Assembly: GCA_013202285.1 (NCBI GenBank)
Contig: JABMRV010000166.1
Span: 1 to 41,763 of the forward strand
Reading direction: 5' to 3'
Length of the DNA stretch: 41,763 nt
Source of the DNA: a bacterium
GTDB lineage: Bacteria > Electryoneota > AABM5-125-24 > Hatepunaeales > Hatepunaeaceae
Every line of letters begins with the position of its first letter. Positions within the stretch are counted from its first letter, which is position 1. Position numbers and translations under genes: made by a program. The notes under the pieces were generated by a model. That model had not been told where the DNA came from. It saw only the letters and a program-made list of their open reading frames with translations, and searched no databases. Of this stretch, positions 2,587 through 41,763 are shown in pieces.

Positions 2587-2588
2587 CA

Positions 2589-4268: not shown

Positions 4269-4298
4269 ATTGAAGACCTGACAGCAACAATAAAATAA

Positions 4299-4322
4299 AC
4301 CTGTCCAGCAAGCTGGACAGGT
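4299..4322 (-). terminator. Rho-independent terminator of the DUF2914 gene
   Basis: ACCTGTCCAGC and GCTGGACAGGT form a perfect 11-bp stem around AA. Read on the minus strand the stem is followed by TTTATTTTATT, the T-rich tail of an intrinsic terminator, about 65 nt past the stop codon at 4389. On the plus strand there is no T-run, so it acts chiefly on minus-strand transcripts. Confidence 0.75.
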
Positions 4323-4388
4323 CACTCATTGATAGTCCACCAGACGCCGGATTACCAACACGATTCAGCGAAGAACCTCAACTGAAAC

Positions 4389-4844
4389 CTATTTGACTGT
4401 AAACTCTCCATGTTGGAGTACAGCTCCGTCATCAGTCTGTACTACTACCTCCCATTTGCCGACCGCTTCCGGATACATGCTCTTGTAGCTCCAGATTCTC
4501 CAGCGCTTACTCTTTCCAACTTTCAGTTCGATGCTGCTCACGAGTTCACCTTCAAGATACCACAGGTGTTTGATAATCTTCTCTTCGAGGCTACTGTTCA
4601 TGTCAGTATGACAGTAAACTCGCTCAATCTCGTGGGAGAACTCATCGGCGGGTTTTACAGGCTCACGATCCTGCACATCCTGACAGAAGGTCATGGAGTT
4701 GACCGAAATATCCTTCAGTGTGGGCGGTTCGGTTGATTCAGGCGTTTCTTCTTCAGCCTGCGCCAGTATAGCAGGCGTGAAAGCTAAAAATAATAGAAAG
4801 ACTAACAGGATCAGACTCGACATTGAAGCATGTAAGTGATGCAT
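4389..4844 (-). CDS. Secreted DUF2914-family protein
   Basis: The 151-residue product has a Sec signal peptide (hydrophobic run at residues 9-23, likely cut near AILAQA). The mature part has the DUF2914 pattern: an early cysteine (C54, TFCQDV), VYCHT with C78, an HLWYLEG strand, the basic SKRWRIWSYKSMYPEAVGKW core, then a C-terminal beta strand. Members are small periplasmic or surface beta-rich proteins of unknown role. The two cysteines could form a disulfide. A very strong ribosome site, AGGAGG, stands before the ATG. It follows clpX by 60 nt on the same strand and ends in the terminator at 4299-4322, so it may be read through from the clp operon or have its own promoter. Confidence 0.8.
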   Translation of the reverse strand: MHHLHASMSSLILLVFLLFLAFTPAILAQAEEETPESTEPPTLKDISVNSMTFCQDVQDREPVKPADEFSHEIERVYCHTDMNSSLEEKIIKHLWYLEGELVSSIELKVGKSKRWRIWSYKSMYPEAVGKWEVVVQTDDGAVLQHGEFTVK

Positions 4845-4904
4845 GGTTTTACCTCCTGGAAATGTTGTTCAATACTCTGCTATTACTTAACTTACTCTTA
4901 AATA

Positions 4905-26200: not shown

Positions 26201-28786
26201 ATGGTGGATGTTGAGATCGAAGAGGATGACGACGAAGTCTTAGTCGCCAACCTGTACAATCATTTCATGGATCCGGACGAAGATGTGCTCATTTTCGACG
26301 CCGTACCTGCAGAAGACTGGTTGTTCATCAGGATCACCAATGCGGATCTCTTCATCCAGCCTGCAGAGGATGCATTCGGTGATGCCATTGAAGTGGTCGT
26401 TTCAGCCACCGACGGCTTTGATACGGTCACGGATACTTTCCTGGTAAACGTCGCAGCAGTCAACGATCCGCCTCGTCAGCGCGTCGCCATTCCTCTTGAG
26501 ATCATTCTCTACGAGGATCCGGGTTTGCAGACAATCGCCGATCTCGATACCGTCTTCATTGATGTTGACAATCAGGAAGACCTGACCTATCGAACCACAG
26601 GCGGCGACGATCTCCAAGTCAATATCGACGATGAGCATGTCCTCACCTTCGATCCGGTTGAGAATTGGTTCGGTGTGCAGACATTCTCGCTGTGGGTTGG
26701 TGATGTCGTTGAAAACATCGGACCGGTGCGTCATTCTGATGATTACAGCACGTCATTCAACAACGAATGGTACGGACAGTCATCGACGCCGAGACGCGAT
26801 GAGGAGACCTCAATCGACATATTAGTCGAGATTCTTCAGGTTAACGATACGCCGATTGTATTCGCTCCTATTGAAGATCAGCAGTTCTTTGAAGACCAGG
26901 GACCCTGGCTCGTAGCCGATCTCGATGATGTCTTCCTCGAGCTTGAAGGTGAAATTATGAGCTATACCGCTCAGGCTGCCGAACCGCTCACTTATTTCAT
27001 CGATAATGATAACGTTCTGTTCCTGGATGCACCTCTGGACTTCTTTGCCGACAGCTTGCAGGTTACAGTCACGGCGGAAGACCCGCATGGTGATTCTGTT
27101 TCCGACGACTTCCTCGTCGATGTGATCTATACCAGCGATCCCCCAGTTGTAATTCAGCCGATCGACGACCGCACCTACGACGAAGACAGTTGGCCCTGGG
27201 AGATCATCGATCTGGACGATGTGTTCTACGATGCGGATCGTGATACGCTCCAGTATGACGTGACTGTTGCTGAACCGATCATTTTCGAGATCGACGATGA
27301 CAACATGCTGATCCTCACCGCTCCGGACGACTACCAGGCGGCTGATATCGAAGTTATCGTTACAGCGGATGACGGTCATGGCGGAAATCGTACAACCTCG
27401 TTCCGCACTGTGAGATCACTGAGATCCACCAATCGTACTTCCGTTGGTCCTGTTCGTCAGATGCGGTCGACCCATACCGGATGGACAACCTCACCGATGG
27501 ACGATCCCAGGCGAGACCCCATTATCGATGAGCCGTTCACTCTTACTATTCTGGCGGTCAACGATGCACCGGTATGGACTGAAATACCCGACTCTCTATT
27601 ACATAACGAGGAAGAGGTAGTTGAGTTCATTGTTGCAGCCGGAGATATTGATCTCGATAACGAAGGAGATGTTCTCACCCTGACGCTGGAGAATGACGAC
27701 GGCACGCTTGAACGCGGTGCTGAGTTCATCGTTAACGGCGGCATTGACGGAATGTTCACCTGGCTGACGGATTTCGAGGATGCCGGCGATTATCACCTCG
27801 TATTCAAGGTCGAAGACCTGGCTGGCACAGCGATTACTCACACGGTGTTCATCTCGGTCGGGAACGTAAACCGCCCACCGGCTGTCATAGCCGGTATTGC
27901 TGACCAGGAGTTCGATGAGGACTCAGGTCCCTGGGAAATTGCCGATCTGGACGATGTCTTCTCCGATCCGGATGCGGATGCACTCGAATTCAGTATCAGC
28001 GCTCCTGAGCCGCTTGTAGTCGTTGTTGACGACGAACATCTGCTCTCGATCAGCGTACCTGACAACTACAATGCAACAGGCTTGTCGATACTGATAACAA
28101 CCTCCGACGGTGCTGCCGTTGCCACAGATACATTCATGGTTGACATCAACTTCGTCAACGATCTACCGACAGCCTTCTCGCTGGTCTCTCCATACGACCG
28201 TCAGGTGCTCACCAACGAATGGGCTATGTTCAAATGGACGGAATCGGTCGATGTGGTTGAAGATTCAACGATAAGCTATGCGCTTGTTCTGACATTTAAC
28301 GACACGACGACACTCTGGTTCAGAGATCTTCAAGAGACTGAACTGCTCGTTGCCAGAACCATAATGCTGGTAGATTCAGCCGATACCAATTACGTTGAAT
28401 GGATGGTCTATGCATTTGACGGAGTCGATTCGTTAGCAAGTACGGAAACGTTTGACTTGATCGTAGCGCCCATCGGCGAGGATGCGGAAGAGGAGGTCAT
28501 AGTGCCGACAGAACTGACACTCGGACCTGCATATCCGAACCCGTTCAACGATATTATTACCATCGAATTTGATCTGCCGTGGGATGGTATGCTTGAAATA
28601 AGCATCTTTGACATCGAAGGTCGTAAAGTTAAAACGCTGTACAATGACGACCTGAATATAGGTTCACATCACACTTACTGGGATGGGCTGGATGCAGGAG
28701 GTGAGAGAGCTTCATCGGGAATCTACTTCTGCCACCTGAGCACGCATTCGAGCACGAGGATAATTCAGATAATCCTTATCAGGTAA
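11285..28786 (+). CDS. Giant multidomain surface protein with T9SS-type C-terminal sorting domain
   Basis: This is a single uninterrupted 5,833-codon frame. After a Sec signal peptide (residues 1-25, ending VQAQ) come a GDEIGVFTPDG-type module and two choice-of-anchor-D/ASPM-SPD-2-Hydin-like domains. A second GDE module, three more anchor-D domains and a cadherin-like domain follow. Next are 22 tandem Ig/cadherin-like repeats (14012-20407), a third GDE module, another anchor-D domain and GDE modules four and five. Four more repeats (about 21736-22884), an Ig-like block (22885-25605), cadherin-like repeats with DWFG and DLDDVF motifs (25608-28150) and a fibronectin-like domain complete the stalk. 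The last 88 residues (YPNPFN, FDIEGRKV, SGIYF, ending in basic RIIQIILIR) are a T9SS/FlgD-like sorting domain. The composition is strongly acidic with many DPDGDDLT loops that could bind calcium. Probable roles, by inference, are adhesion, surface layer or cell contact. GGAG precedes the ATG, and two terminators follow. Confidence 0.93.
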   Translation: MKRFNICFGLLVTCLILTSSAVQAQHFEPANDEGPSHSLIIQSATIDDQELGNNDEIGVFTPDGVCAGSVVIADDPPHGLAAYGDDPGTPDDVEGFLEGEEFSFKLWDGQDEVEAHFEFVGETQTWEQDVVTSIARIFFYNDPIPVIGLDTFEHDFGLMGVDHTAEWILTITNIGFGELTISDVYPSNQVFDTDFENEIILQPAESHDLLVTFTPSSEDNFAGTLTIENDDPDNDQIMVNLTGSGTNVIEPLMALSHQTLDFEEWPTELIRTLVLTISNAGTGDLTIDNIVVEGNLFDTDWDGNDIVITPQQSHDLSVTFAPEAVELYEGSLTISSDDPGGEAIVDLVGIGIDPQTHFRYVETDLDHSLLIVNSTLNGEPLEPGDEIGVKTEDGVCAGGDVVEERGEQIGFGAFGRSGNIDGFTAGEEISFFIWDMSSDIEVEATPDIHVGSIEWVDRGLAILDLEAETPFAPYITVSPEVLDFGQIGSGYEGYEYLQIRNIGTDYLRVTNIVSDDPDHFDPYFRVGFIVRPGGSRWVRVTFTPDDITTFDAQLTIYSNTPGNEEMTVDVTGEGIDPPAMIDVNATEYDFGEVLVDEVATWDLIITNIGGEDLTIQAVQSDNNVFTHDYSDGETVLQPDESLTVEVTFAPVAYINYMGTLTIFNDDPDQEDQELGINLSGSGLLLPDITVDPLILSFRNIEINTSASRDVTITNDGDANLWIYDISVTGEYLTVDFDGEFFLAPGEEHIFQAHFNPTELGDWEGRITIESNDENEGPVNILVILECIFINYPPEVVEPIDNQVLQEDFDGVRVADLLQIFADENDDELFFTVEDNQEQFTTEIQEGHYVYMEADQDWFGVVTVTVTADDQFGGRDLGPVRSLRTVGNQGIFPGRDTPTSHEFDVEVQAVNDSPVWTEFPEDFIEDEPALIEFNMAGTDVEGDDLSIVYASETIPDAAQFNDNGDGTASFYWQTTFFDAGDYTATFTLSDYEYDVEAVLNISIADINQPPEWVDFIDSVDGFEGEELTIDLVGFDLDENDLTIVYSSDDLPEAVEFTDHGDGTGTFVWTPTYDEEGDYTAIFTLSDIEFDVVGEIAISIANVNRAPVWDDIPTETINIDEEDVVDFTMVASDPDGQDLTISYNPNGTPDAAQFNDNGDGTATFYWETTLDDAGNYIPIFTVTDGDLEVEAEVVIMVGETNQPPVWENIPETAEGNENTTIEFTMEASDQDEDELEIVYTSGDLPDGVNFTDHGNNTATFSWDAGYDDAGEYTATFTLLDGFWEVSHDVAITVNNINRPPVWDSIPGDYTVDEAALIEFTVVGSDPDVEDEVTITYDPDGLPEGVEFTDQGDGTATFYWQTWYEDAGQYVINFTISDGVENVVSNDVIIIVNNVNAPPYFIDPIEEYYASEQELIEIGFEAADYDGDDITLTFTRGSLPDDVHFTDHGNGTGILVWQTDHDDAGRYNCQIRASDDGGHSITHLDIIVSDVNMAPTWEYAPAIITIEETEFFDLTVIGEDLDGDDLTIEYESDDIPEEAEFTDHGDGTATLTWQTGYEDAGVYQATFTISDGEISVPTIVRITVNNLNRVPVWDVIPEDVVADEDDLVEFVMSGHDPDGSDLTITFSSHNLPLDVSFTDFGNGRGEFSWQTSFDDAGDYTATFTLSDGEDMVDIDVDITIGNINHEPEWVDIPPAVHAPNEGDLILFDVFGEDVDDDELIITYRSDDLPGGEDFTDHGDGSGTFEWQTGGGHTGIYFVTFILSDDEFDIEEVVIITVGDVNRPPEFTRIPGSIQIGENSLLEFSIEAMDPDDDNLTIDFTSDDLPEEAQFTDHGDGTGDFSWQPTYDEAGLYLAVFTLSDGIYNIVGEVQIRVNDVNQAPEWTQVPRTFAGDETTIITFDVSGIDADDDYLTITFDSEDPALRDAAEFTDNRDGTGRFRWVTTYDDAGIYYATFRLSDGVYTVSEVTTIRVNNVNREPVWDIYPDYMTIDEGVLINFLVRAIDPDGTEDLELSYTHVGIPDVARFTDHGNGYGIFTWQTNYDDEGRYWARFAVTDGELEATVSVRIDVEYLNREPYWVGVPDPIEGIEGLEDEVITFNVAGDDPDDDADLSISYYSDDLPDDVDFTDNRDGTGTFNWMPDFDDSGEYLAIFTLSDDEAEVTTEVPITITHVNRAPEWDDPPRLIQINEGEELQLTVAGIDPDGDELSVAYRGGDISRLETEFADHGDGSGTLTWHPDFDQSGEYAANFELSDGRFRVELTVTIIVNHVNRPPEFVEIPERAEADEGQWVAFSLEVFDPDDDDISVIMESENLPVDVSFSFNPENGTGTFTWQTDYEDEGDYVATFTVSDGPVSISEDVSITVNHVNVAPFWTNVPDVVEGDELVQIQFLVQGGDIDDDDLTVEYSSDDIGDDATFRDFGNGAGRFTWRPGFDDQGDHHATFTLSDGEFSIVTEVLIIIENVNREPVWDEIPIEIFADENDWIEFDMSGSDPDGDDLIIRLVPGDLPNIAHLTDNGDGTASFEWQTGYNDAGTHTATFILSDGVTDVAGTTTIIIDNVNRPPRWISVPVFDDRFDEGDLVSFLIRGYDPDGDDLTLEYSSNDLPEEVEFVVESPGLGSFSWQTTNEDWGLYYADFTLSDGVETIEAPVQIAVGDVNRPPQLEDVPGAISVDEGNRISFTIYGTDPDYDRLTLTYSSDDLPENVEFSTRFIEGRLEGTFLWETGFGDAGEYSALFTLSDEEIEIEAQVDITVESVNHSPYWVVMPDVVDAVEAEFFSFGIAGEDPDGDDLTITFTSDNLPEDATVSDRGDGTGQFLWITTYDDAGSYSVSITLSDGELSVTEDVVINVTNANRPPIWTVVVEEIRSEEDEIIVFDLAGTDPDGDRLAIHYERNNIPDEARFVDNLDGSGVFRWRPNYLDAGVYSALFTLSDGDLGVELETSIIVEDVNRPPIWTDYPAVEYDIIARVDEETSISITAIDPDGDAIEYDYRFLDEEIGDTDFEVVDGSAVLTVVPNRFEFDSYPIRFTASDGEQSARLEFNIFVFGGHFLAEEETGRMHSVRIDWIDHYLNDPDEFDELAAITPAGTIAGLITFGEEDPPWSMTIWGDDPATHLIDGYRTDEPFRFLFWDHDLGVENGVRTEVVGGDPVWRHDGFSVLRMLIAPEVSATVANVDFGLVRIERSSDREITFTSTGQAPVTGLQLNLEGIGFELDDDGPVDLDQGEEWTVTITFSPGEAIDYAAMLHVTSDYTQLDMEITGTGVRMRNFEYEITSLYHQIDILSIDVGREIGIFTPVGMCAGAVNIAGDAPWELYAWGDDPETLPVEGFRTGDAFTFKIWDGNEELDAMPIYHDGIHTWAAGALTVVSLVTAEHHFNWITTRPQHNIEIDSLDYFGGGLSAGDEIAVVNPRAVVSGGIYRHLAPWRFVIYGDNPNTDYITEGFHENEHIYFRIWKHDEEREYLARPTWRDGDPQTFQDGETSHVYLTVVRDNVAPIFDPMESLVGQEGQLLEFSINASDFNDDAISLALVGVDLPENVIFTDAGDGSGTVSWEPGPMDAGAHVAQFTAFDGWVFREDEVSIRIININHPPEFTEALADQEVDENEPLSMFIDAFDQDGDDLTYTVELAEGMEGAYIDGSLFRWTPNYDQAGFYEDIIFRIVDNGQPPAAITDTIQITVNDVNRGPVWREINPITEDEGALVNFTVFATDPDGQDLELTAGDLPENAEFIDNGDNSGTFNWETGFDARGRYQPYFDASDGELSARLPVLITIRETNRRPIFEAIEDQQVEINETLELSINATDPDEGDQVELVITVSNLPPSAHFTDYGNGVARLVWRPSFEDRGIYPNVGFEVSDPSGLSDHATVVFTAGYVDDVGPVIADLYPGNDLVLRISELTVTAMITDNFSGVDEIEFMFDDEAIDNFLFDEESGEFSWDTEALSEGNHSYSIRATDVVGNSTIVAVAFEINSSAGEINLEPLDRFTNYDRINVSGTSDRFLTIHLFRNGEEIVSTEADRRGRFLFENVQLVNRANWLVLRGYELINNEQVAALEDSLMIYLDIEAPEINVLGPARFINDLTPQIAVRIADVDAGNAVGIDEETGAYLALDRVNIPIDDGDNGGYQFFNNLLTYDIPEDLIEGHHSFSVMAVDRLGNAPNDPFDVPFFVDSYPPEVLHRYFDNELDTINSSTPEINIAVVDPLPSSGIVGDDIILLVDGEPRAFVWNEADGSVYFDFEDNEFDRLDAGLHRIELDLFDNAGNRTVATGEFFIGLTIDGDPPDYTNLKPPDGSVAGLGGGGYDMQPYRLPADTVSAVISDIDAGVDWETVEMRINGELVDGGDMIFQIPPGRVSVPMYNRAPGDHQGDDEMPGLEEGLNEINIFSADEEGNEDEVTWVFFFDATAPDGVELQPLDDDIVNTVAIEVVVNTGGDSPDYPDGYENIASVRIYRNNEVTVEQIVEYNTQDITITGILLVEGDNTLEATLIDGGGNESARSEAVSVFLDMTDPNIVSFQAEGGRLLATDTPTFVAILADDGSGVDPDNIVLTVDGDAVEGQFDNGTFTAQVQDALEEGNYTASLTVIDMAGNESSEDFDFNIDLSLVQTPIFELHQYTSVNRVYLTGEGQVGTDVFIYLDDEEIGSFFLENEAVFEFSRTIVDLPDESSITLKAINDRDAESGVSDPQMLYIDQDPPEFVSLSPDRNERVNAAELESIDVEIVDELAGIDPEGYIFTMNGEDLLFNVTGDGQLTADVSDVDFGDNEAVSMMVSARDMTLTPNTGQVNWQFITLINDAPVVDIPDAEFLEDGSLTINLNEWISDPDNSIDELDISGEITEGAENAEMNINEQNMLQISADENWNGNLTVEITVVDPDELSTTDEIAITVAPVNDSPVLDPLDIAVTIADELFELQVNASDVDEGDDLTFSDNSDDFDIGVDDGMISFIPTRDMLGRNTIVITVTDEAGAADDETLILIVNRGINPPELVQPMVDVEIEEDDDEVLVANLYNHFMDPDEDVLIFDAVPAEDWLFIRITNADLFIQPAEDAFGDAIEVVVSATDGFDTVTDTFLVNVAAVNDPPRQRVAIPLEIILYEDPGLQTIADLDTVFIDVDNQEDLTYRTTGGDDLQVNIDDEHVLTFDPVENWFGVQTFSLWVGDVVENIGPVRHSDDYSTSFNNEWYGQSSTPRRDEETSIDILVEILQVNDTPIVFAPIEDQQFFEDQGPWLVADLDDVFLELEGEIMSYTAQAAEPLTYFIDNDNVLFLDAPLDFFADSLQVTVTAEDPHGDSVSDDFLVDVIYTSDPPVVIQPIDDRTYDEDSWPWEIIDLDDVFYDADRDTLQYDVTVAEPIIFEIDDDNMLILTAPDDYQAADIEVIVTADDGHGGNRTTSFRTVRSLRSTNRTSVGPVRQMRSTHTGWTTSPMDDPRRDPIIDEPFTLTILAVNDAPVWTEIPDSLLHNEEEVVEFIVAAGDIDLDNEGDVLTLTLENDDGTLERGAEFIVNGGIDGMFTWLTDFEDAGDYHLVFKVEDLAGTAITHTVFISVGNVNRPPAVIAGIADQEFDEDSGPWEIADLDDVFSDPDADALEFSISAPEPLVVVVDDEHLLSISVPDNYNATGLSILITTSDGAAVATDTFMVDINFVNDLPTAFSLVSPYDRQVLTNEWAMFKWTESVDVVEDSTISYALVLTFNDTTTLWFRDLQETELLVARTIMLVDSADTNYVEWMVYAFDGVDSLASTETFDLIVAPIGEDAEEEVIVPTELTLGPAYPNPFNDIITIEFDLPWDGMLEISIFDIEGRKVKTLYNDDLNIGSHHTYWDGLDAGGERASSGIYFCHLSTHSSTRIIQIILIR
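14012..20407 (+). repeat. 22 tandem Ig/cadherin-like (He_PIG type) protein repeats
   Basis: Within the giant gene, 22 units of about 97 residues follow each other without spacers. Each begins N-R/Q-P-P-x-W and contains DPDGDDLTI in its first half. FTDHGDGTGTF then W-Q-T, then YDDAGxYxATFTLSDG follow, and the unit ends with an alternating Val/Ile strand and D/N-V-N. The last unit (from about 20116) is divergent. The units differ at many positions, so the array is old or under selection for diversity and not freshly amplified. Four related units lie at 21736-22884 and one at about 27556-27868. Confidence 0.88.
28500..28786 (+). other. C-terminal secretion/sorting domain of the giant protein
   Basis: A short acidic linker is followed by LGPAYPNPFNDIITIEF, an IFDIEGRKVKTL strand, HHTYWDGLDAGG, SSGIYFCHL and a basic hydrophobic end. 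This is the pattern of T9SS type A sorting domains and the related FlgD-Ig-like fold in FCB bacteria. It predicts that the protein is moved across the outer membrane by a type IX system, with genes that must lie elsewhere. Confidence 0.85.
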
Positions 28787-31806: not shown

Positions 31807-33234
31807 TTATTTAGGATCGATTGATTCCAAGGCAACACTTCTACGGGGAATCGTTACAGTAAACTTGCTTCCCTTACCGGCTTCAGAATCGATTTGAATC
31901 GATCCCCCATGCGAGTTGGCGATCTTATTGGCGATGAATAATCCCAGTCCGGTTCCCTCATGACCTTTTGAAGAGAAGAACAGACTGAACGCTTTCTCTT
32001 TTGTTTCCTGTTCCATGCCGATGCCGTTGTCCTCGACCTCGAACAGGATTTCATCAGGATTGCTTTTCAAGCGAAAACAGACTTGGTGATGATCTTTCTT
32101 ACGGTCAACCCTGCATGCATCGAGTGAGTTTTCAAGAAGGTTTATCAATAGCGATCTTATCGCCTTGGCATCAACATCGAACTTCCCTGAGTCTTCCTGC
32201 AATTCGGTTTTAAGATCGATATTGAGTTCTGTGGCTTTCGTTTCAACTACTTTTATAACTTCATCTGCGAGATCCAATATGGAAACATGCTCCCAGTTCA
32301 TCTCCCGATCCTTGGCGTAATAAAGAATATCGAGTACCATGCTGCGGATGCGGTTGATATTGCGCATGACTATTTCCCAGCCTTTTTCAAGGCGGTCACG
32401 GTTGTCATTCTGCAAACCTTTGTTCACCAAGTAGATACCACCGTTCAAGCCGTTCAGCAGTCCCTTGATGCCATGAGAGATTGAACCGATAAGCAATCCG
32501 ATCGAGGCGAGCTGATCCTGCAGTTCGCGAATCTGAGTGATATCCGAGGTCATTTCGATGACATTTATTATTTTTCCCGTGGCGTCTCTGATGGGGGCAG
32601 TGTGGACGAGAACGTTCATTGTCTTACCCTGGAGTGATGTGACCATCTCCTCGTGAAAATGCACTTCACCATCGGCAAAGGTCTGTCGAACCGTGCATGG
32701 ATAACATTCTTCAGTTCGATGCTTGTAAGCTTCGAAGCATTTGCGACCAAGTGAGTTTCCAAAGGCTTCAAGGTGGAGTCGATTAGCGTGGACAATATTC
32801 AGATCGGCATCCTGAATCGATATGAAACAGGGAACTTCCTCAAAGAGCATCTTGTAGCGGTTCTGGCTTTCACGAAACTGTTTCTGCAGGGCTTTAATCT
32901 CGGTGATGTCCGTTGACATCTCCATCACCGCGATTATTTCACCATCTTTATTCCGAATCGGAGTGGTATATACGATGACTGAGACGTCGGTTCCATCGAG
33001 GCATCTGACCTGTTCTTCGCTTGAATGTTGCTGACCGTCACGAAAGGTTTTTTCAACAGTGCAAACCTCGCACTTCTCTGAGCGACCCTTATACACCTGG
33101 TAGCAGTATCTTCCCTTATAATCCCCGAAATCTTCTATGAACCTTCTATTTGCCGTAATGACGCGCAGATTACGATCCTGTACCGTGAGGTAGCATGGCA
33201 TTTCATCGAAGTAATCTCTATAAGGTAAATCCAT
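31807..33234 (-). CDS. Soluble sensor histidine kinase with two cysteine-bearing PAS domains
   Basis: The 475-residue kinase has PAS1 (about 8-115) with C44, C55 and C58, and PAS2 (about 128-238) with C166, C177 and C180. Both share the pattern C-(F/Y)-x2-Y-x6-C-x2-C-T-V-x2-TFxDG. The kinase core follows: H254 in SISHGIKGLL, N box LLINLLENSLDA (about 362-373), DNGIGM (402-407) and GTGLGL (427-432). No membrane segment is seen, so it senses a cytoplasmic signal. Three-cysteine PAS domains are known from anaerobes and suit a metal, iron-sulfur or thiol redox signal, but the ligand is not shown here. It lies between the receiver-fused DsrK-like gene and the stand-alone receiver gene, both likely partners. 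Confidence 0.92.
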   Translation of the reverse strand: MDLPYRDYFDEMPCYLTVQDRNLRVITANRRFIEDFGDYKGRYCYQVYKGRSEKCEVCTVEKTFRDGQQHSSEEQVRCLDGTDVSVIVYTTPIRNKDGEIIAVMEMSTDITEIKALQKQFRESQNRYKMLFEEVPCFISIQDADLNIVHANRLHLEAFGNSLGRKCFEAYKHRTEECYPCTVRQTFADGEVHFHEEMVTSLQGKTMNVLVHTAPIRDATGKIINVIEMTSDITQIRELQDQLASIGLLIGSISHGIKGLLNGLNGGIYLVNKGLQNDNRDRLEKGWEIVMRNINRIRSMVLDILYYAKDREMNWEHVSILDLADEVIKVVETKATELNIDLKTELQEDSGKFDVDAKAIRSLLINLLENSLDACRVDRKKDHHQVCFRLKSNPDEILFEVEDNGIGMEQETKEKAFSLFFSSKGHEGTGLGLFIANKIANSHGGSIQIDSEAGKGSKFTVTIPRRSVALESIDPK

Positions 33235-33321: not shown

Positions 33322-35055
33322 TTATGCGAGTTCGAGGATTTTTCGGACGTTCAGCATTAAGGTGTCTTCATCCACCGGTTTATCGAGATAACCTTCCGGT
33401 GGAGTAACTGGGCGGTCATAGATAAGTCTCCGCAATTCCGGTCTCCCCGTGATGATACACACCTTAATACCAGCGGTCGCCGGGTTGTTGCGCAACTCTT
33501 CAAAAACCTTGCCTCCATCCTTGCCCGGCATATTGAGATCTAAAGTCATCAGGTCGGGTTTCTCCTTGAGAGCAAGTTCAACTGCAGTATCTCCATCGAG
33601 TGCTTCGAGTACTTCTGCTCCGTTGTCTTCAAGAACCGAGCTGAAAAACGTAAGGATATCCGGTTCATCATCAACGACGAGAATTTTATATCCCTTCAGG
33701 ACGGGTTCTTTCACTACTTCTTCAACCGCCGGTACTTCGACGATCACCTTCTTCTCAGGGATAATCAATGCGTTAGCTACCAGGTTCACGAGCTGGGACA
33801 CTTCCATTCCGAGCTTGTAATGCCTGATTACATCGGTCAAACCGTCCACGCAGTTATGACAGGATGTAACAACGATTTCAGCGCCTGTTGCTGTTAACTG
33901 ATCGGCTTTAACTTTTGCGGATTTGAGACGATTCGGCGTGTATTCCGACATCGACATTGCGCCGCCTCCGCCTGTGCAGCAGTAGTTCTCCGCACGATTG
34001 GGATACATTTCACGCCAATCCGTTACAACGAGTTCCAGAAGTTCACGTGGTTCTTCAAACAATCCGCAGCTACGGGCGTTATTGCAGGAATCGTGGAATG
34101 TTACCGGCGTGGTGTTTCTCGTTTTATCGACCTTTATTCTGCCTTCCCTGATGTACCTGAGCATGGTAATAACAGAGCTTTCCATCTCAAAATCTATATC
34201 CATACCAGCCCAGTTCGGTCCTTCGCAGCGTGTCGAACGGTAACCGTGACCGCATTCGGAGATCACTAATTTCCTGCCTTTAAGTTCACTAACCTTTTCA
34301 TACAATCGACGTGCAACAGCGCCTCCAAGCGCATCATCACCGGAGAACAGACCGAAATTCGTCATGTCCCAACCTTCGCTCGGCATAGTCCAGTTTTCAC
34401 CGGCATTATGAAAGATCTTGGCGGCATCGGCGATGGTGCGGGGATCGTACTTAACTTCTCGCGGATTGATTGAATAGACGACTTCACAGTTCATCTTATC
34501 TATAGGAATAATGGCTGTATCGTCCTCTAATTCCAACTGCAGTTCATCTGACATCCATTCCAGTGTATCGATATAATCTTCTTTGAGGACTCCCATCTGA
34601 TTGCCGATTTCCCACTGATCCTTGCTGACCACCGCAACACCTTCAGGCATAATACCGACCGAAACGAGCAGACCGCGTGTCATGCGGTTGTAAGTGGCGA
34701 AATCAACCCCCATCGGACAGTTTATGGAACAACGCCTGCAGTTAGTGCACTTCCCGAAGACGATATCCTTCAATTCCTCAAGTTCTTCATCGGTAAATAT
34801 ACTCTTCCCACCTACCCACCATGGGAATATCCTTCCCGTCCAGTCGAAATGACGTTTAAAAATCTTACGAAGTCTATCAGCTTTATAGGCTGGAGCGTAT
34901 GTGGGATCATCGGGATTAGCGAGGACATAGTGGCATGCTTCAGTACACATTCCGCAATGTACGCACGCCACCAGTGAACCGACCATCTGGCGATTTAGTT
35001 TCTGACCGAGACGTTCAAGAAATTTCTCTGCTTTGTAGGATCTATGTTTACTCAA
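33322..35055 (-). CDS. DsrK/HdrD-like iron-sulfur protein fused to a C-terminal receiver domain
   Basis: The 577-residue fusion has a first 4Fe-4S motif, C31/C34/C37/C41 (last Cys followed by His, not Pro), and a second, C103/C106/C109/C113 followed by Pro. The cysteine-rich catalytic part has SEC268GH, HDSC324N, NYC359C360TGGG and C399HNC402. A Val/Glu/Pro-rich linker (about 435-453) leads to a full receiver domain at 455-577 with D462-D463, phospho-acceptor D506 (TLDLNMPGKDG) and K559 (GYLDKP). The first part matches subunit K of DsrMKJOP and HdrD, and would exchange electrons with the membrane cytochrome b upstream. The receiver suggests that phosphorylation by the adjacent kinase controls catalysis or assembly. 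The start is TTG at 35055, overlapping the stop of a 35-codon ORF, with GGGG upstream. Fusion across an assembly join is unlikely because the frame is continuous and the linker is natural-looking. Confidence 0.88.
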   Translation of the reverse strand: MSKHRSYKAEKFLERLGQKLNRQMVGSLVACVHCGMCTEACHYVLANPDDPTYAPAYKADRLRKIFKRHFDWTGRIFPWWVGGKSIFTDEELEELKDIVFGKCTNCRRCSINCPMGVDFATYNRMTRGLLVSVGIMPEGVAVVSKDQWEIGNQMGVLKEDYIDTLEWMSDELQLELEDDTAIIPIDKMNCEVVYSINPREVKYDPRTIADAAKIFHNAGENWTMPSEGWDMTNFGLFSGDDALGGAVARRLYEKVSELKGRKLVISECGHGYRSTRCEGPNWAGMDIDFEMESSVITMLRYIREGRIKVDKTRNTTPVTFHDSCNNARSCGLFEEPRELLELVVTDWREMYPNRAENYCCTGGGGAMSMSEYTPNRLKSAKVKADQLTATGAEIVVTSCHNCVDGLTDVIRHYKLGMEVSQLVNLVANALIIPEKKVIVEVPAVEEVVKEPVLKGYKILVVDDEPDILTFFSSVLEDNGAEVLEALDGDTAVELALKEKPDLMTLDLNMPGKDGGKVFEELRNNPATAGIKVCIITGRPELRRLIYDRPVTPPEGYLDKPVDEDTLMLNVRKILELA

Positions 35056-35159
35056 TGATTTTCCCCGTTGTCGAACTCCTCATACCGTAATTTAAGCTCG
35101 GAAACGATGACATTCTTGTCGGCGGTACAGAGGAGTATGTTGTACTTTGAATTTATCAA
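35052..35159 (-). CDS. Small 35-residue ORF nested between the cytochrome b and DsrK-like genes
   Basis: On the minus strand a TTG codon (35159-35157) overlaps the TGA stop of the cytochrome gene. The frame runs 35 codons and its own TGA overlaps the TTG start of the DsrK-like fusion (TTGA in both junctions). The predicted peptide begins INSKYNILLCTADKNVI and ends DNGENH; it is charged and has one cysteine. It looks like strand 1 and helix 1 of a receiver domain but lacks the acidic pair, so it may be a relic or a true small subunit. Perfect stop-start overlaps at both ends argue for translation; the lack of a clear ribosome site and the double TTG usage argue against. I do not recognise a family. 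Confidence 0.45.
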   Translation of the reverse strand: MINSKYNILLCTADKNVIVSELKLRYEEFDNGENH

Positions 35160-35848
35160 TTTTGCTGTTTTTCAGGTTGATTGCTATGTTTCATAGGGTA
35201 AATTCCTCTATATCCCATGGTCTTTCCGAAATAATATCTGGTGAATGGGTAATACAAATAGTGTGAAATTTTGCTGAAGGGGACGTAAATCAGGAAGAAT
35301 GCAGTCAGAATGAAATAGATCAACAGGATTGTTTCACCCTTCTCATGCTGATTGGGGACGGATAGAAATGCGAAGAAAAACCAGACGGTTAGAAGAATCA
35401 GTGAGAAGTAATCGTCTGGTGTGCTGATGGAACGCATGACAGGTTTGGATATCCGCCTGACAATCCGCATTATTGCTATGATGAAAGCCGCCCCGATTAC
35501 CACTTGGAATAGAAGAACTATTCCTTTATTATTAAGGATATTACCGAGATAAGGTATGATGACTGACAATGCTATTGCGGCTGTCACCCCCATGTGAAAA
35601 ACCCCAAACTGAAACCACATCAGGATGTGTTTTTGCGTGCTTTCCATTGACCAGGGCATAAAAATGTTTGCCCAGGAGTAGATGATTCCCTTTTTTGGTG
35701 TAGTGCCGATGACACCGGTTGGGGCTTGTCTTTCACGACCTGCCTTGAACCTCATCAGCCATATTATGCGTATCGTGTAAACGGATGCCATTATAATCAG
35801 GGCGATCTCTTGAAGTCTATGTTCAGCGAAATGCAGTAATTCGCTCAT
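35156..35848 (-). CDS. NarI/DsrM-like membrane cytochrome b subunit (second copy)
   Basis: The 230-residue membrane protein has about five hydrophobic segments: an N-terminal one near ALIIMASVYTIRIIWL, then those around FGVFHMGVTAAIAL, LLFQVVIGAAFIIAI, LILLTVWFFFAFL and TILLIYFILTAFFLIYV. Candidate haem b ligands are His residues in LLHFAEHR, QKHILMWFQFGVFHMG and FSKISHYLYYPF. The C-terminal FTRYYFGKTMGYRG end is basic and cytoplasmic. It is shorter than the cytochrome at 1672-2586. It is encoded just before the small ORF and the DsrK-like fusion, which would be its electron partner. This order (membrane subunit, then iron-sulfur subunit) matches that of the first module. Confidence 0.85.
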   Translation of the reverse strand: MSELLHFAEHRLQEIALIIMASVYTIRIIWLMRFKAGRERQAPTGVIGTTPKKGIIYSWANIFMPWSMESTQKHILMWFQFGVFHMGVTAAIALSVIIPYLGNILNNKGIVLLFQVVIGAAFIIAIMRIVRRISKPVMRSISTPDDYFSLILLTVWFFFAFLSVPNQHEKGETILLIYFILTAFFLIYVPFSKISHYLYYPFTRYYFGKTMGYRGIYPMKHSNQPEKQQN

Positions 35849-36485: not shown

Positions 36486-36986
36486 TTATTGGCTTTTTCC
36501 CCTGGTACGGAATGTATCGTGCAACAGCGGTTTGAGATCTTCGGTACAATAAATGCTGAATCGATAAACTACGCATTTACTACAACTTGGAATAACTGCG
36601 CATCCTTTATGTTGATGTAATACCCAGCAGGGTCTTTCGGAACTCACAGTCGCCGGGCAGTTTTGACGATGATCCGGAAAACACTCCTTCAGCTCCCAGC
36701 ACGGTATTAGTGCCCAGATACGCAGGATACCTTCTATATTCAGACCTTTGGTTTTAACCAGATACTGTATCTTGCGAATTCGTTCAATATCTTCAAATGA
36801 GACCATACGACGGTTTGTCTTAGTACGGTAGAAGACAATCAATCCGGCTGCCTCGTACTTCCGAAGAGCAGACTCGGAGAGCTTGGTGATTCGCGCTGCT
36901 TCTCCTATATACATCACCGGATCGTCGGTATCAACACTTAAGATCGGAGAGTGTTCCTGAAACCAGTCACTTATGTAGCTGTTCAA
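36486..36986 (-). CDS. MerR-type transcriptional regulator with C-terminal eight-cysteine domain (paralogue 2)
   Basis: The 166-residue protein aligns without a gap to the regulator at 974-1471 through the DNA-binding domain (YIGEAARITKLSESALRKYE, wing RTKTNRRMVSFEDIERI) and the cysteine domain. C96, C102, C110, C120, C129, C135, C138 and C147 stand at the same eight residue numbers. The two proteins are most similar in residues 38-100. The cysteine set could bind zinc or an iron-sulfur cluster. It is the first gene of the minus-strand cluster ending at 30360 and is preceded by a 13-bp inverted repeat at 37009-37039. Its position next to a DsrMK-like module repeats that of paralogue 1. Confidence 0.86.
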   Translation of the reverse strand: MNSYISDWFQEHSPILSVDTDDPVMYIGEAARITKLSESALRKYEAAGLIVFYRTKTNRRMVSFEDIERIRKIQYLVKTKGLNIEGILRIWALIPCWELKECFPDHRQNCPATVSSERPCWVLHQHKGCAVIPSCSKCVVYRFSIYCTEDLKPLLHDTFRTRGKSQ

Positions 36987-37497: not shown

Positions 37498-38295
37498 ATG
37501 AAAAAACTGGACATCCATCTGTCAGAGGTTCAGGCTGTCTATGACGGCGCTGAAGGAGTGCTCTGGGAACTCATCATGGGCGAACAGATCCATGTGGGCG
37601 GTTTCAAATCAAGTATGGAGCTTGCCACCAGAGCAGGTATCAAGGAAGGCATGCACGGCATTGATCTGTGCTCGGCGCTGGGCGCGGGTTGCCGCTTCCT
37701 TGCCAAGAATTTCAATGTAACCATGGTCGGTTATGACGGAACAACCACCATGATTGAGAAAGCCAAAGCTCGGACTACAGAGGAGGGCTTGGGCGAGATG
37801 ATCGAAAACCGGATGGGAGATGTGACGTCGATTTCATTCGGCGACGGCGTCTTCGACTTTGTATGGGGTGAAGATGCCTGGTGTTATGTTGACGACAAGG
37901 CGAAACTGATATCGGAGGCAGTGCGGGTACTCAAACCCGGCGGGATACTCGCCTTTACCGACTGGATCGAAGGTCCCAATTCTCTCTCCGATGAGGAAGC
38001 CGAACGAATCTGTACTTTTATGAAGTTTCCTTACTTGCAGAACCGTTCGGGGTACGAGGAACTTATCAGATCTCACGGACTGACCATCACTGAGAGCACG
38101 GATCTGACTGAGGAGTTCGCGGGATATGTCGATTTTTACATCAAGATGCTGACCGACCAGCTTACTTTTGATGCACTCAAAATTATCGGCGACAATATGG
38201 AGCTTTTCCAGGCAATGGGTGGTGAAATGGCATTCATGGCAGAGAAAGCTCACGAAGGTAAAATGGGGCGCGGTCGCTTCATCGCCAGGAAGTAG
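37498..38295 (+). CDS. SAM-dependent methyltransferase, sarcosine/dimethylglycine N-methyltransferase-like
   Basis: The 265-residue class I methyltransferase has SAM motif I as GIDLCSALGAG (54-64), D80 for the ribose, GDV (107-109) for the adenine, VWGEDAWCY (122-130) and LKPGGILAFTDW (145-156). The N-terminal VYDG...GEQIHVGGF segment and the GEDA motif match sarcosine/dimethylglycine and related N-methyltransferases that lead to glycine betaine. The usual DIGAGYG is DLCSALGAG here, with an unusual Cys at 58. A strong ribosome site, GGGAGG, precedes the ATG. It is the first gene of an operon with a corrinoid protein, a UroD-type methyltransferase and a corrinoid activator. It may therefore act on a methylamine-type compound or on a corrinoid methyl group (inference). 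Substrate unknown. Confidence 0.82.
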   Translation: MKKLDIHLSEVQAVYDGAEGVLWELIMGEQIHVGGFKSSMELATRAGIKEGMHGIDLCSALGAGCRFLAKNFNVTMVGYDGTTTMIEKAKARTTEEGLGEMIENRMGDVTSISFGDGVFDFVWGEDAWCYVDDKAKLISEAVRVLKPGGILAFTDWIEGPNSLSDEEAERICTFMKFPYLQNRSGYEELIRSHGLTITESTDLTEEFAGYVDFYIKMLTDQLTFDALKIIGDNMELFQAMGGEMAFMAEKAHEGKMGRGRFIARK

Positions 38296-38316
38296 AGACG
38301 AATAAATCGGACAGCG

Positions 38317-38352
38317 GCAGGAGGAGGCAGCTCAGGCTCAGCCTTCTCCTGC
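38317..38352 (+). repeat. Intercistronic stem-loop
   Basis: GCAGGAGGAGGC (38317-38328) pairs with GCCTTCTCCTGC (38341-38352) with one G-U, and the loop AGCTCAGGCTCA has its own small AGC/GCT stem. No T-run follows. It may moderate transcription between the methyltransferase and the corrinoid protein or protect the mRNA. Confidence 0.5.
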
Positions 38353-38367
38353 TGGGTTCGGAGATAA

Positions 38368-38395
38368 GGGATGAGGGATGAGGGATGAGGGCTGA
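38368..38395 (+). repeat. Tandem heptamer GGGATGA overlapping the ribosome-site region
   Basis: Three perfect copies of GGGATGA (38368-38388) plus one variant, GGGCTGA (38389-38395), end 3 nt before the TTG start of the corrinoid protein gene. Each copy has a GGATGAGG-like ribosome-site element. Copy-number change would move or multiply ribosome sites. Confidence 0.7.
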
Positions 38396-38398
38396 AAA

Positions 38399-39043
38399 TT
38401 GAAAGAGATTTACGAGCAGTTGGCTTCCGCCGTTCTGGAGATGAAGAGCGGCGAGGTCGAACGCCTTGCGCATCTTGCTCTCAAGGAAGGTTATCCTCCC
38501 GAAGAGGCAATCGAGCAGGGTCTGGCAGCCGGTATGAACGAAGTAGGTAAGTTATTTGCTTCTAAGGTGTATTTCGTGCCTGAAGTCCTTGTATGTGCCA
38601 AGGCGATGTATGCCGGCTTTGACATTCTGAAAGAGAAGGTTGTCTCAGGATCTCTCAGTAGAAAGGGGAGCATCGTTATCGGTGTCGTCGATGGCGATTT
38701 TCACGACATCGGCAAGAACATCGTGAAGCTGATGCTCGAAGCAGCGGGATTCAGAATTGTTGACTTGGGTAAGAATGTTACTCACGACCGGTTCTGTGAA
38801 GCCGTGGCAGCGGAAAAACCGGATATTGTGGCGATGTCAACATTGATGTCAACGACGATGGACAGTATGTCGGATACTGTTGCTTCGCTGAAAGGACGAT
38901 TTCCCGAGTTGAAACTGATGGTTGGAGGCGCTCCGGTGGACGATAGTTTCTCCAGGTCGATCGGCGCACATTTCTACGGTGAGGATGCCCGGCGAGCGGT
39001 CGAAGGCGCTCATGATCTTATGGGAATACCCTTTGAAGGATAA
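38399..39043 (+). CDS. Corrinoid (B12)-binding methyl-carrier protein
   Basis: The 214-residue protein has an N-terminal four-helix cap (1-88, MNEVGKLFASKVYFVPEVL) and a Rossmann B12 domain with the DxHxxG motif as D100-F-H102-D-I-G105. H102 is the lower axial cobalt ligand. STL (147-149) and MVGGAPV (175-180) complete the corrinoid pocket, as in MtaC/MttC/MtbC. It carries a methyl group between a substrate methyltransferase and a second methyltransferase. The start is TTG at 38399, directly after the GGGATGA repeats. It overlaps the next frame if that gene begins at 39012. Confidence 0.94.
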   Translation: MKEIYEQLASAVLEMKSGEVERLAHLALKEGYPPEEAIEQGLAAGMNEVGKLFASKVYFVPEVLVCAKAMYAGFDILKEKVVSGSLSRKGSIVIGVVDGDFHDIGKNIVKLMLEAAGFRIVDLGKNVTHDRFCEAVAAEKPDIVAMSTLMSTTMDSMSDTVASLKGRFPELKLMVGGAPVDDSFSRSIGAHFYGEDARRAVEGAHDLMGIPFEG

Positions 39044-40031
39044 GGTTTTCCACAGGATGTTTCCCCAGTTTCAGGATCGCGGTTATGCCCGCGGACCCAT
39101 GATCGCAGCCGATCATCTGTCTTTCCTGCTTCGGAAACCTCTTGACGAGGTTTGTCGGGACGGAAAACTGTTGGCGGAAGGTCTTCTGTATACGCGAAGA
39201 CTTTATGGATCGGATTTGGTCATTGTCTTTTCGGATATAAATCTTGAAGCCGAAGCGCTTGGGGTAAAATTAGAATACTCTCCTGACAGAAATCCCCATA
39301 TTATTGAGCAACTGCTGCCTCGGGATGTTAAAGTAATCGACATGCCGACTGGAGGCAGTATCCCCGAACTTTTCAATGCTGCAGCGATCTGCCGCAAAGA
39401 GCTGGATAGTGGAATTCCTGTCTTTTTTTCCATGAAGGACCCGTTTAGTTTGGCTGCGCTGGCGATAGGGACGGAAGCCTTTCTGATAGCGCTGCTTGAG
39501 GAACCGCGGATGGCAATGGATCTGCTTGAAGTCTGTTGTGAGAACCAACAGCGGCTAATCGATGCTGTTTGCTCAGAAGGTTATATCCCGTTGGTGGGTT
39601 CGCCTATTGCTTCCGGCAGCGTTATCGGACCGGCATTTTTTCAAGAATTTGCCGAACCGGCGATCAGGCGGGTTCTGGATCGTGCGGAGGAAGCGGATTC
39701 GTTTCGCTGCATGCATATCTGCGGCGAAGTAAGCGTACTGATCGAACAGATATATTCATTGAAACTCGATCTTCTAAGTTTTGAGGAGTGGCACGCTCCG
39801 ATGTGGGGGCTCCTTCAGGATACGATACCGATGGGTTATTTATCAACTTATTTATTCGTGAAAGGTGATGAAGAAACCATCGAGAGAGCGACAATGGAGT
39901 GCATGGCGAATCTGCCGAAACCGTTCATACTATCAAGTGGCTGCGATATTCCGGCGAATGCCGATCCGGAACTTGTGGTGCGAATGATGAACGTGAGTCT
40001 GGTTCGAAGTAAAAAAAATCTATCCAATTAG
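39012..40031 (+). CDS. UroD/MtaA-type cobalamin methyltransferase
   Basis: The protein belongs to the uroporphyrinogen-decarboxylase fold family and is about 340 residues from the ATG at 39012. The zinc site is H235-x-C237 (MHICGEV) and C311 (SSGCDIP), typical of MtaA, MtbA and the O-demethylase MtvB type and not of true heme UroD. GSPIASGSVIGPAFFQEFAEPAIRR is a family signature region. The N-terminus is short against the usual MtaA start. The ATG at 39057 is an alternative, just after the corrinoid stop at 39041-39043, while 39012 has GAAGG upstream. It probably moves a methyl group to or from the corrinoid protein, most likely from a zinc-activated thiol or other substrate. No MttB- or MtrH-type partner is in the window. 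Confidence 0.86.
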   Translation: MILWEYPLKDKVFHRMFPQFQDRGYARGPMIAADHLSFLLRKPLDEVCRDGKLLAEGLLYTRRLYGSDLVIVFSDINLEAEALGVKLEYSPDRNPHIIEQLLPRDVKVIDMPTGGSIPELFNAAAICRKELDSGIPVFFSMKDPFSLAALAIGTEAFLIALLEEPRMAMDLLEVCCENQQRLIDAVCSEGYIPLVGSPIASGSVIGPAFFQEFAEPAIRRVLDRAEEADSFRCMHICGEVSVLIEQIYSLKLDLLSFEEWHAPMWGLLQDTIPMGYLSTYLFVKGDEETIERATMECMANLPKPFILSSGCDIPANADPELVVRMMNVSLVRSKKNLSN

Positions 40032-40036
40032 ACTTT

Positions 40037-41620
40037 ATGCCCGAATATAAAATCACAATCGAAACGGATGGCAGTATAATCACCTCACCCGGTGAGGAGA
40101 CCATCAAGGAAGCCCTCGAACGGGAGGGCTATTATTTTCCCAATAACTGTGGCGGTAAGGGGAAGTGTCTCGGCTGTCGGGTGAAATTTATTTCTCATCC
40201 ACCTGAAATGACGGAGTTGGAACAAAAACTTCTTGATCCACACAGCGCTGAGAGGATGGCATGCCAACACAGGCTGACGAGTGATATTCAGATCAGTGTT
40301 CAGGGATACGAGGCTTGGGACAATCTCAAAGCGTTATCCGATTTCAGGATTGAATGCGGAGGAACAGGCTACGGAATAGCGGTCGATCTTGGCACGACAC
40401 TGGTTGCTGTTTACCTTGCAGATTTACGTAATGGTAGTGTTATTGCCCAGAAATCCTTCGTAAATCCACAGCTTCCATTCGGCAGTGATGTCATGTCGCG
40501 GCTCGAATCGATGAGGGATGTTGAAAAACGCCGTAGAATGGTCGATCTGATCCGAAAGCGAGTTGGCAGTGTAATTCTATCTGCGCTGAGAGATAGCAAT
40601 ATTGATGTGAATGATGTGAACAGTCTGTTTCTGGCGGGAAACAGCGTTATGACTCAGATCTGGCTGGGATATGAAGATACCGGACTATCAAGAGTACCCT
40701 TTACAAGCATACTTGAAGGACGAGGTTCAATCGCTTTCGAACCGGCGCTGGTTGGACTACCGGATAGCTGCCGCTGCCGGATCGTTCCGGTTCTAAGGGG
40801 ATTCATCGGCGGAGATACCACTGCGGCAATCCTCGCCACCGATCTTGACGTATCGATTCCGGGCTCAGATAATCATCGAGAAACAGGGAACAGACTCCTG
40901 ATCGATCTCGGTACTAACGGCGAGATCGTCTTGTCGGCAAATGGGCGGTTGAGGGCGGCATCCACCGCTGCTGGTCCTGCATTCGAGGGAGTGGGAATGC
41001 TTGCCGGAATGCCTGCCATAACCGGTGCAATTGAAGGATTTACGGAAACCGGAGAACCCAGAGTTATTGGCGGTGTGAAACCGCTCGGTTTATGCGGTTC
41101 GGGATATATCTCAGCGATCTCGCTCCTGCTGCGAGAGGGAATAATATCATCGTCGGGACTGATGAAGGAGGACAGGGAAGGGGAGAGGCGCTGGTCGTTC
41201 GGATCTGAGGCGAATCTTCCGCCTTTCATTGTACAGGATGATGTTCGCAGATTCCAGCTTGCCAAAGGCGCTGTTGCCGCAGGAGTGGAAATCCTCTGCC
41301 TGGAAGCCGGAATCGTTTCAGATGATCTGGATGAGATTATATTGACGGGATCATTCGGCAGTCGGATCGATCTGCAGGCTGCGAGAGACATCGGATTAAT
41401 TCCCGATACAAACCTTGACAGAGTCTCACTGATTGAAAATGCTGCCGGACGCGGCGCTCTGCTCTGCCTGAGCGAAGACAGCATGATAGAGAGAGCCGAA
41501 GAGCTTCAACGGACAGTTGATGTTATCAATCTCGGCGAAAGAGATGATTTCCAGGACAGGTTTGTCGAGAACATGACCTTGGGACGTTGTCATGCCCGTG
41601 AAAACGGGCATCCAGATTAA
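40037..41620 (+). CDS. RACo-type reductive activator of corrinoid protein
   Basis: The 527-residue protein has an N-terminal 2Fe-2S ferredoxin domain (C38, C44, C47, C76; spacing C-x5-C-x2-C). An ASKHA-type ATPase part follows (GYGIAVDLGTTLVAVYL, GGDTTAAI, LLIDLGTNGEIV, ENAAGRGALL). Such activators use ATP to drive Co(II) to Co(I) reduction when the corrinoid protein is inactivated. It begins 6 nt after the UroD-type gene. The natural end seems to be around FQDRFVENMTLG; the last 11 residues (RCHARENGHPD) and the stop codon come from a palindromic repeat at 41592-41611. The gene closes the operon. Confidence 0.93.
   Translation: MPEYKITIETDGSIITSPGEETIKEALEREGYYFPNNCGGKGKCLGCRVKFISHPPEMTELEQKLLDPHSAERMACQHRLTSDIQISVQGYEAWDNLKALSDFRIECGGTGYGIAVDLGTTLVAVYLADLRNGSVIAQKSFVNPQLPFGSDVMSRLESMRDVEKRRRMVDLIRKRVGSVILSALRDSNIDVNDVNSLFLAGNSVMTQIWLGYEDTGLSRVPFTSILEGRGSIAFEPALVGLPDSCRCRIVPVLRGFIGGDTTAAILATDLDVSIPGSDNHRETGNRLLIDLGTNGEIVLSANGRLRAASTAAGPAFEGVGMLAGMPAITGAIEGFTETGEPRVIGGVKPLGLCGSGYISAISLLLREGIISSSGLMKEDREGERRWSFGSEANLPPFIVQDDVRRFQLAKGAVAAGVEILCLEAGIVSDDLDEIILTGSFGSRIDLQAARDIGLIPDTNLDRVSLIENAAGRGALLCLSEDSMIERAEELQRTVDVINLGERDDFQDRFVENMTLGRCHARENGHPD
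41592..41611. repeat. GAAA-loop palindrome inside the RACo 3' end
   Basis: ATGCCCGT and ACGGGCAT pair around GAAA. It is of the REP-like class seen at 10835-10850. The reading frame of the corrinoid activator runs through it and stops 7 nt later. Confidence 0.75.
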
Positions 41621-41763
41621 ACTTTTATTCTGGGTTCCCGCTTTTCATGTGTTCGAGAATACCAAATTCCCGCTGGCAGACGCCCTCGTCTGCCAGATGT
41701 AGCCCGGGCCCTTGTGGTCCGGGATTTCTCGTTGAGGTGGATCTTGGATTGCAAGAGTACGGG
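41621..41763. other. Intergenic end of window
   Basis: No gene is seen. It holds repeat copy 2 at 41671-41696 and, right after, a CCCGG...CCGGG dyad (41703-41723). These look like adjacent scraps of dispersed repeats. The next gene starts outside. Confidence 0.5.
41671..41696. repeat. Palindromic intergenic repeat, copy 2
   Basis: CTGGCAGACG, loop CCCT, CGTCTGCCAG form a perfect 10-bp stem (41673-41696). It matches copy 1 at 1530-1555 with one base different over 26 nt, forty kilobases away. In both cases it lies between genes. Confidence 0.7.

Follow-up and report, generated by a model that had tools for sequence, protein, structure and literature searches.

Positions 37498-41620 of a bacterial contig of 41,763 nucleotides (JABMRV010000166.1 of assembly GCA_013202285.1; hereafter, at its full length, the window) hold four genes, encoding an S-adenosylmethionine (SAM)-dependent methyltransferase (MT), a corrinoid protein (CP), a corrinoid methyltransferase (UroD) and an activator of corrinoid proteins (RACo). 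Synteny, which bridges a contig break, places these genes at the 5' end of an operon of eight, MT-CP-UroD-RACo-HA-HB-UroD2-activase. MT and HB, usually accompanied by HA and an ATP-dependent activase, form one functional unit, as shown by their co-occurrence and adjacency. The corrinoid genes accompany this wider MT-HB module in one clade, and MT itself represents a highly conserved, widespread and undescribed family that is not an SDMT, the betaine-pathway methyltransferase to which it had been likened. Judging from its neighbours, the unit most likely has a role in handling selenium or sulfur. The best explanation overall, which we hold tentatively and at somewhat less than even confidence, joins the eight-gene operon and the MT-HB unit to a system that draws on methylated or organic compounds for the salvage or acquisition of selenium or, with lower likelihood, of sulfur.

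Below, loci are numbered L, genomes G (G000 being the window's own) and contigs of that genome C; the window takes up all of contig C149, which ends 143 b past RACo. The four same-strand open reading frames (ORFs) have the expected Pfam domains and diagnostic residues, and the set described in a preliminary description of the window is therefore real. MT (37498-38295, forward strand like the three genes after it; 265 aa) is a class I SAM methyltransferase (Methyltransf_11, 2e-17). It is followed after 103 bases, which include a GGATGAG-type short tandem repeat (38372-38393; a similar run ends contig C180), by CP (38399-39043; 214 aa), an MtbC/MtgC-like protein with the cobalamin motif DFHDIG (DxHxxG) and matches to B12-binding (8.8e-27) and B12-binding_2 (4.2e-22). 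UroD (~39033-40031), of the MtaA/CmuA superfamily (URO-D, 1.9e-44), overlaps CP slightly. Its start is uncertain: the listed TTG at 38922 lies within CP, and 39012 or 39033 is likelier; counted from that TTG, the protein has H265-x-C267 and C341. RACo (40037-41620; 527 aa) begins 5 bases further on, and its N-terminal 2Fe-2S domain with 2Fe-2S-type cysteines (Fer2), together with the middle and C-terminal domains (Raco_middle; RACo_C_ter, 2.6e-60), identifies it as a RACo-type, ATP-dependent reductive activator. Promoter and terminator predictions gave no signal here: 10 promoter-like sites were counted where 6.3 would be expected, and 4 terminator-like ones where 5.1 would be.

The remaining genes were found on contig C180 (4818 bases; L107) with an HB query from a relative. 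This contig carries HA (117-1202) and HB (1199-2596), both of the HGD-D type (2-hydroxyacyl-CoA dehydratase / double-cubane), then UroD2 (~2598-3626) and the activase (~3646-4479). A scan for MT relatives of one genome per species, covering 84,980 species, had yielded 212 relatives, of which 80 were kept, giving 81 rows with the window. Six of these loci (L026, L027, L028, L029, L030 and L053) have the order MT-(EamA)-CP-UroD-(RACo)-HA-HB-UroD2-activase, RACo being missing in L029 and L030, and EamA in L027 and the window. The strict order MT-CP-UroD-RACo, which the preliminary description proposed to look for in other anaerobes, occurs in 5/81 loci (the window, L026, L027, L028 and L053), and the order MT-CP in seven. 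A 27-b palindrome-like repeat at 41670-41696 of the window recurs as its reverse complement at the head of C180, within the first 60 bases of L107, and is the likely cause of the assembly break between the two contigs. The idea of an unusual hybrid operon was borne out; the set first noticed makes up no more than its first half. Both UroD and UroD2 carry His-x-Cys...Cys, the residues of a His-Cys-Cys zinc site. In L026, UroD and RACo read as a single 850-aa ORF (2513-5062), possibly a natural fusion.

HA of the window aligns over its full length with the double-cubane protein DCCP (6eno, 7yyl), including the five DCCP cysteines, three of which are invariant across 62 HA sequences. HB keeps three cysteines (Cys150 and Cys179 in 62/62 sequences, Cys410 in 58/62), and the activase matches TIGR00241 with 230.8 bits. 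We infer that HA and HB resemble the HgdAB/BcrBC/DCCP reductases, with two subunits and an ATP-driven activase to serve them. They differ from DCCP itself in being two unlike subunits, in the smaller cysteine set of HB, and in scoring 107.7 (HA) and 59.6 bits (HB) against the DCCP equivalog model NF040772, both below its cut-off of 350 bits.

Genes of the HGD-D or activase type adjoin MT in 64/80 loci, counted, like all neighbours below, within locus stretches averaging 15.8 kb. Per row, the partners of MT were HB in 61 of the 81, an HA-type gene in 61, the activase in 53, DCCP in 53, CP in 7 and RACo in 6. Among 147 genomes around the window, MT was detected at E<1e-20 in 14, ten of them at 1.7e-110 or lower and four at 1.5e-46 or weaker. 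HB (E<1e-30) was present in exactly the ten close-MT genomes and absent from the other 137 (Fisher 1e-15, uncorrected for kinship). In G012, G017, G021 and G024 the two genes lie on different contigs, as they do in G000 through the contig break; only in G021 and G024 are both contig-internal and free of other module genes. Pairwise distances among MTs track those of HA, HB, activase and DCCP (Spearman 0.59-0.80, compared with 0.15-0.23 for the best shuffle). Another steady partner was sought by running 104 author-chosen proteins out of 302 neighbours through Pfam, with 98 families matched and 25 listed; none emerged, the commonest listed families (DUF3034, ABC permease and AP_endonuc_2) having 4 members each. 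A literature search found, within the collection of papers covered, no account of MT beside HGD-D/activase genes.

These counts bear on the proposal that MT moves methyl groups between SAM and the corrinoid protein. The physical order MT-CP in seven loci suits such an exchange, as does a cysteine of MT, Cys65, that is confined to the corrinoid clade (11/11 sequences in the window's MT clade, 0/70 elsewhere). Most MT loci, however, have the same conserved residues and no adjacent corrinoid gene, and reductive activation is already supplied by RACo. Since HB, and not a corrinoid gene, is the steady partner of MT in the family, exchange is unlikely for the family, and we regard it as improbable for the window as well.

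The corrinoid branch instead appears as a local feature. In the MT tree, the corrinoid-type MTs fall in a single clade of 11 rows with support 97, four of which have no CP in the flank. A UROD gene (E<1e-60) was found in 8/147 genomes, 7 of them MT-bearing (Fisher 3.7e-9). Co-conservation of the first gene with its corrinoid neighbours, on which the preliminary description hinged, thus holds within this clade and fails in the family at large. Most MT genomes of the window's phylum carry CP/UroD, and a DCCP above the NF040772 cut-off was found in 0/11 genomes of that phylum (ten with MT, plus G003), compared with 4/4 module genomes outside it, chosen by us as examples; the DCCP gene of L058 scores 426 bits. 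Our best reading is that a corrinoid demethylation branch of the Mlp/Sdm type took the place of the double-cubane reductase in the window's clade. Such a swap is a clue that both branches may do the same job.

The eighth UROD genome, G003, holds a remnant of the operon (L116 4098-5842, on G003:C47), in which the last 23 MT residues survive at 100% identity together with EamA, part of CP, a truncated UroD and, up to the contig end, the beginning of RACo. Because the TmcC-like and macro-domain genes next to it are those of the window, this copy is a decayed operon at the syntenic site. In the divergent gene beside it, a sigma-54 activator is combined with an arsenate-reductase-like domain. Two lone MTs of the clade (L032 478-1203 and L157 9932-10546) adjoin a cob(I)alamin adenosyltransferase-like gene.

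Across the 81 aligned MT sequences, at least 95% conservation was observed at 68/265 positions. Cys58, located in the SAM-binding motif (D-L-C58-S-A-x-G-A-G-C65), is present in 80/81 sequences, and most of the family has three consecutive cysteines there; Cys129, after strand 4 (W-G-E-D126-A-W-C129-Y), is present in 81/81. The predicted structure (pLDDT 94.9) matches phosphoethanolamine and sarcosine/dimethylglycine methyltransferases as well as RebM/AtmM, and superposes on SDMT (2o57) with Z 30.4 over 252 residues at 22% identity, a similarity of fold that does not show function. MT shares with the methyltransferases of these two kinds (2o57, 3uj6 and 5wp5) the fold, the SAM site and the aligned catalytic Tyr and Asp; it differs in its two conserved cysteines, in a Tyr for the catalytic His, and in an overall identity of ~20-26%. 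In the alignment with the phosphoethanolamine methyltransferase PfPMT, Tyr15 and Asp126 correspond to Tyr19 and Asp128, Tyr130 replaces His132, Cys58 falls at the first motif glycine and Cys129 at a leucine. Of the label 'SDMT-like' for the first gene, the fold and a distant similarity survived; the family assignment did not, since MT reaches 57.8 of the 550 bits that the SDMT model NF041675 sets as cut-off.

That the operon demethylates a betaine or an unusual methylated amine, with MT as an SDMT-like amine methyltransferase, would be in keeping with this fold, the weak match to SDMT and phosphoethanolamine methyltransferase, the aligned Tyr15/Asp126 pair and the MtbC/MtgC likeness of CP. The low SDMT score and the exchange of the catalytic His speak against it, and so do the genes around it. 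The four-gene set has no MttB/MtgB- or MtrH-type gene, as was originally noticed, and the look-up of MtrH/AcsE in the full genome (91.9% complete) returned none, PF00809 yielding only a dihydropteroate synthase and MetH. Both UroDs have His-Cys-Cys residues, and in the wider family selenium genes rather than betaine genes stand beside MT. The SDMT/betaine reading of MT, which has neither model support nor partner genes, was rejected, and a substrate of the amine type is very improbable. Because of the HGD-D reductase partner and the frequent selenium-gene neighbours, we favor methylated selenium or sulfur compounds over amines.

The selenium context is widespread. A selA, selB or selD gene was present in the MT flank in 28/80 loci, where we estimate that about one or two would be expected. 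The linked loci are labelled Planctomycetota, Lentisphaerae, Fibrobacteres, Myxococcota, Armatimonadetes, Opitutia, Actinomycetes and unnamed phyla. A tRNA-Sec was found in 8/19 MT loci scanned. In three loci, SaoA/SaoP-like ABC genes that score below cut-off lie upstream of MT, which we also count in favour of the salvage reading. The SelD proteins of 19 MT loci form one cluster of mostly long proteins, the scanned representative of which has a C-terminal CMD/AhpD domain; module-adjacent SelDs (L044, L076 and others) combine such a domain with a Cys-rich N-terminal extension. In the close relatives L025 and L029, MT has a divergently oriented SelA gene as its neighbour. At the genome level, 42/49 MT genomes examined (out of 80) had a SelA over the cut-off and 44 had any match; counting any match, SelA was present in 35/36 genomes with the module and in 9/13 with MT alone (p 0.014). 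Within the window's phylum, a second SelA occurs in 7/10 MT genomes (G012, G013, G017, G018, G021, G024 and G030) compared with 1/29 others (p 6e-5, uncorrected for kinship), and in G017 one copy adjoins MT. The window's own genome has SelA on C219 and, on C11, a SelD with an in-frame UGA at the active site.

Several published systems resemble this arrangement. According to Kountz and Balskus (PMC10418091), type 1 mlp clusters comprise a corrinoid protein, 2-3 His-Cys-Cys UroD methyltransferases and a Ram/RACE activator, have no tetrahydrofolate (H4folate) methylase, and are tied to DCCP, selABCD and methyl-selenide metabolism. These authors read His-Cys-Cys in UroD-type enzymes as specific for sulfur or selenium and report that ClMlp2 transfers the methyl group of methylcobalamin to selenide. 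In PMC11097638, a UroD/corrinoid locus of selenium-starved M. maripaludis is up by 5.6-7.8 log2, and Lin et al. (PMC5322559) count HGD-D and activase genes among the associates of selenium genes. The window operon shares with type 1 mlp clusters (PMC10418091) and with the dimethylselenide system SdmABC of Methanococcus a corrinoid protein, more than one His-Cys-Cys UroD, an ATP-dependent activase, the lack of an MtrH partner or H4folate methylase, and the link to double-cubane and selenium genes. It differs from both in opening with a dedicated SAM methyltransferase and closing with the HA/HB/activase reductase.

The corrinoid-dependent O- and N-demethylases of acetogens, too, comprise a corrinoid protein, RACo and a UroD-type methyltransferase, as in the window set. 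Unlike them, the window operon and its genome have no MtrH-type second methyltransferase.

The same module could also be imagined to serve sulfur, in the salvage of methylthio compounds or methionine with transfer of the methyl group to a thiol. His-Cys-Cys sites suit sulfur and selenium alike, 5/49 MT genomes are without SelA, and the ABC genes noted above belong to the taurine/sulfonate/nitrate type; Kountz and Balskus (PMC10418091) attribute methyl-sulfur/methionine salvage to roughly 10% of their type 1 mlp clusters. Against this, the adjacency of selA/selB/selD and of tRNA-Sec is far above expectation, and no methionine-salvage family was seen among the 25 listed of 98 neighbour families. 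We consider a sulfur-dedicated module rather unlikely.

Handling of organometals, in which MT methylates or binds a soft metal or metalloid such as arsenic or mercury that is then demethylated by the reductase or by the corrinoid branch, draws on the ABC transporter genes of those three loci, which are related to SaoA/SaoP of the SAO organometal system (NCBIfam), on weak ArsM-type NCBIfam matches of MT (49.5 bits and lower), and on Cys58/Cys129, which could bind a soft element. The best Sao scores, 245.1 of 360 and 156.2 of 295 bits, are below cut-off, as is every ArsM match, and the window locus itself lacks the ABC genes. By our reading of the ArsM motif, Cys129 is off the ArsM cysteine position, and the 25 listed of the 98 neighbour families include none for arsenic or mercury. 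This role appears improbable.

The gene set, its co-inheritance and the residues are observed; the substrate, the direction of methyl transfer and the order of steps in the following scheme for selenium (or sulfur) salvage are proposed. SAM-dependent MT would methylate the chalcogen in a pocket formed by Cys58/Cys129, giving a methyl-selenide or methyl-selenonium, and the activase with HA/HB would deliver ATP-driven low-potential electrons to cleave the C-Se (or C-S) bond. In the window's clade, CP, the two His-Cys-Cys UroDs and RACo would then take the remaining methyl group or groups off selenium, first onto cobalt and afterwards onto a thiol, the latter being proposed as final acceptor because no MtrH/AcsE is present; two UroDs would suit two methyl groups. 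The selenide thereby freed could be passed to SelD. Phyla other than the window's have a true double-cubane reductase in place of the corrinoid branch, and there this enzyme would remove the methyl groups.

A bolder version, to which we give only a small chance, makes MT selenium-specific: a methyl tag from SAM would set selenium apart from excess sulfide and be removed next to SelD, by the double-cubane route in most phyla and by the corrinoid/UroD route in the window's clade. If true, a methyl-handle system for selenium discrimination would be common to many phyla of uncultured anaerobes. MT travelling with an HGD-D reductase, often in selA-selB-selD loci, offers a concrete gene set for studying two questions: how anaerobes secure sulfide-free selenide to make selenophosphate, and which tasks double-cubane reductases perform in the cell.

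A number of observations weigh against the favored explanation. No selenium gene adjoins the operon in the window, the genome's SelA and SelD being on other contigs, and C149 and C180 do not overlap. MT stands without HGD-D genes in the flank in 16/80 loci, several of them at contig ends and some in SelA-less genomes, and in the clade members L032 and L034 MT and HB are unlinked, with no HA or corrinoid gene beside either. In a sample of 199 Planctomycetota, of which 136 had SelA and 11 had MT, SelA was present in 10/11 MT genomes and in 126/188 others (p 0.18); this is too weak for genome-wide co-occurrence with SelA to serve as proof of a selenium role. The conserved parts of MT, HA, HB, activase and DCCP contain no internal in-frame TGA (selenocysteine), and TGA stops were seen only at alignment ends or in poorly matched stretches, so a selenoprotein within the module was discarded as the cause of the sel neighbours. 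The proposed substrate and methyl direction, finally, rest on homology.

Elsewhere in the window, a divergent gene upstream of MT (36486-36986, reverse strand) encodes a MerR/HspR-like protein with a Cys-rich C-terminus, which may regulate the operon. At 33322-35055 (reverse strand), a response-regulator receiver domain is fused to an HmcF/TmcB-like Fe-S/CCG protein; genes for a TmcC-like membrane subunit and a PAS histidine kinase stand beside it (31807-33234 and 35156-35848). The fusion protein is read as a subunit of a redox complex, and this subunit may itself undergo phosphorylation. On the forward strand, 11285-28786 encodes a giant secreted or surface protein of 5833 aa with Ig-like, cadherin-like and HYDIN/ASH-type repeats and a Por_Secre_tail C-terminus. 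Outside the window, a BzdO gene (719.8 bits) and a neighbouring HGD-D gene share one contig (G000:C31; L106 and L137), and the organism therefore probably has an ATP-dependent benzoyl-CoA reductase.

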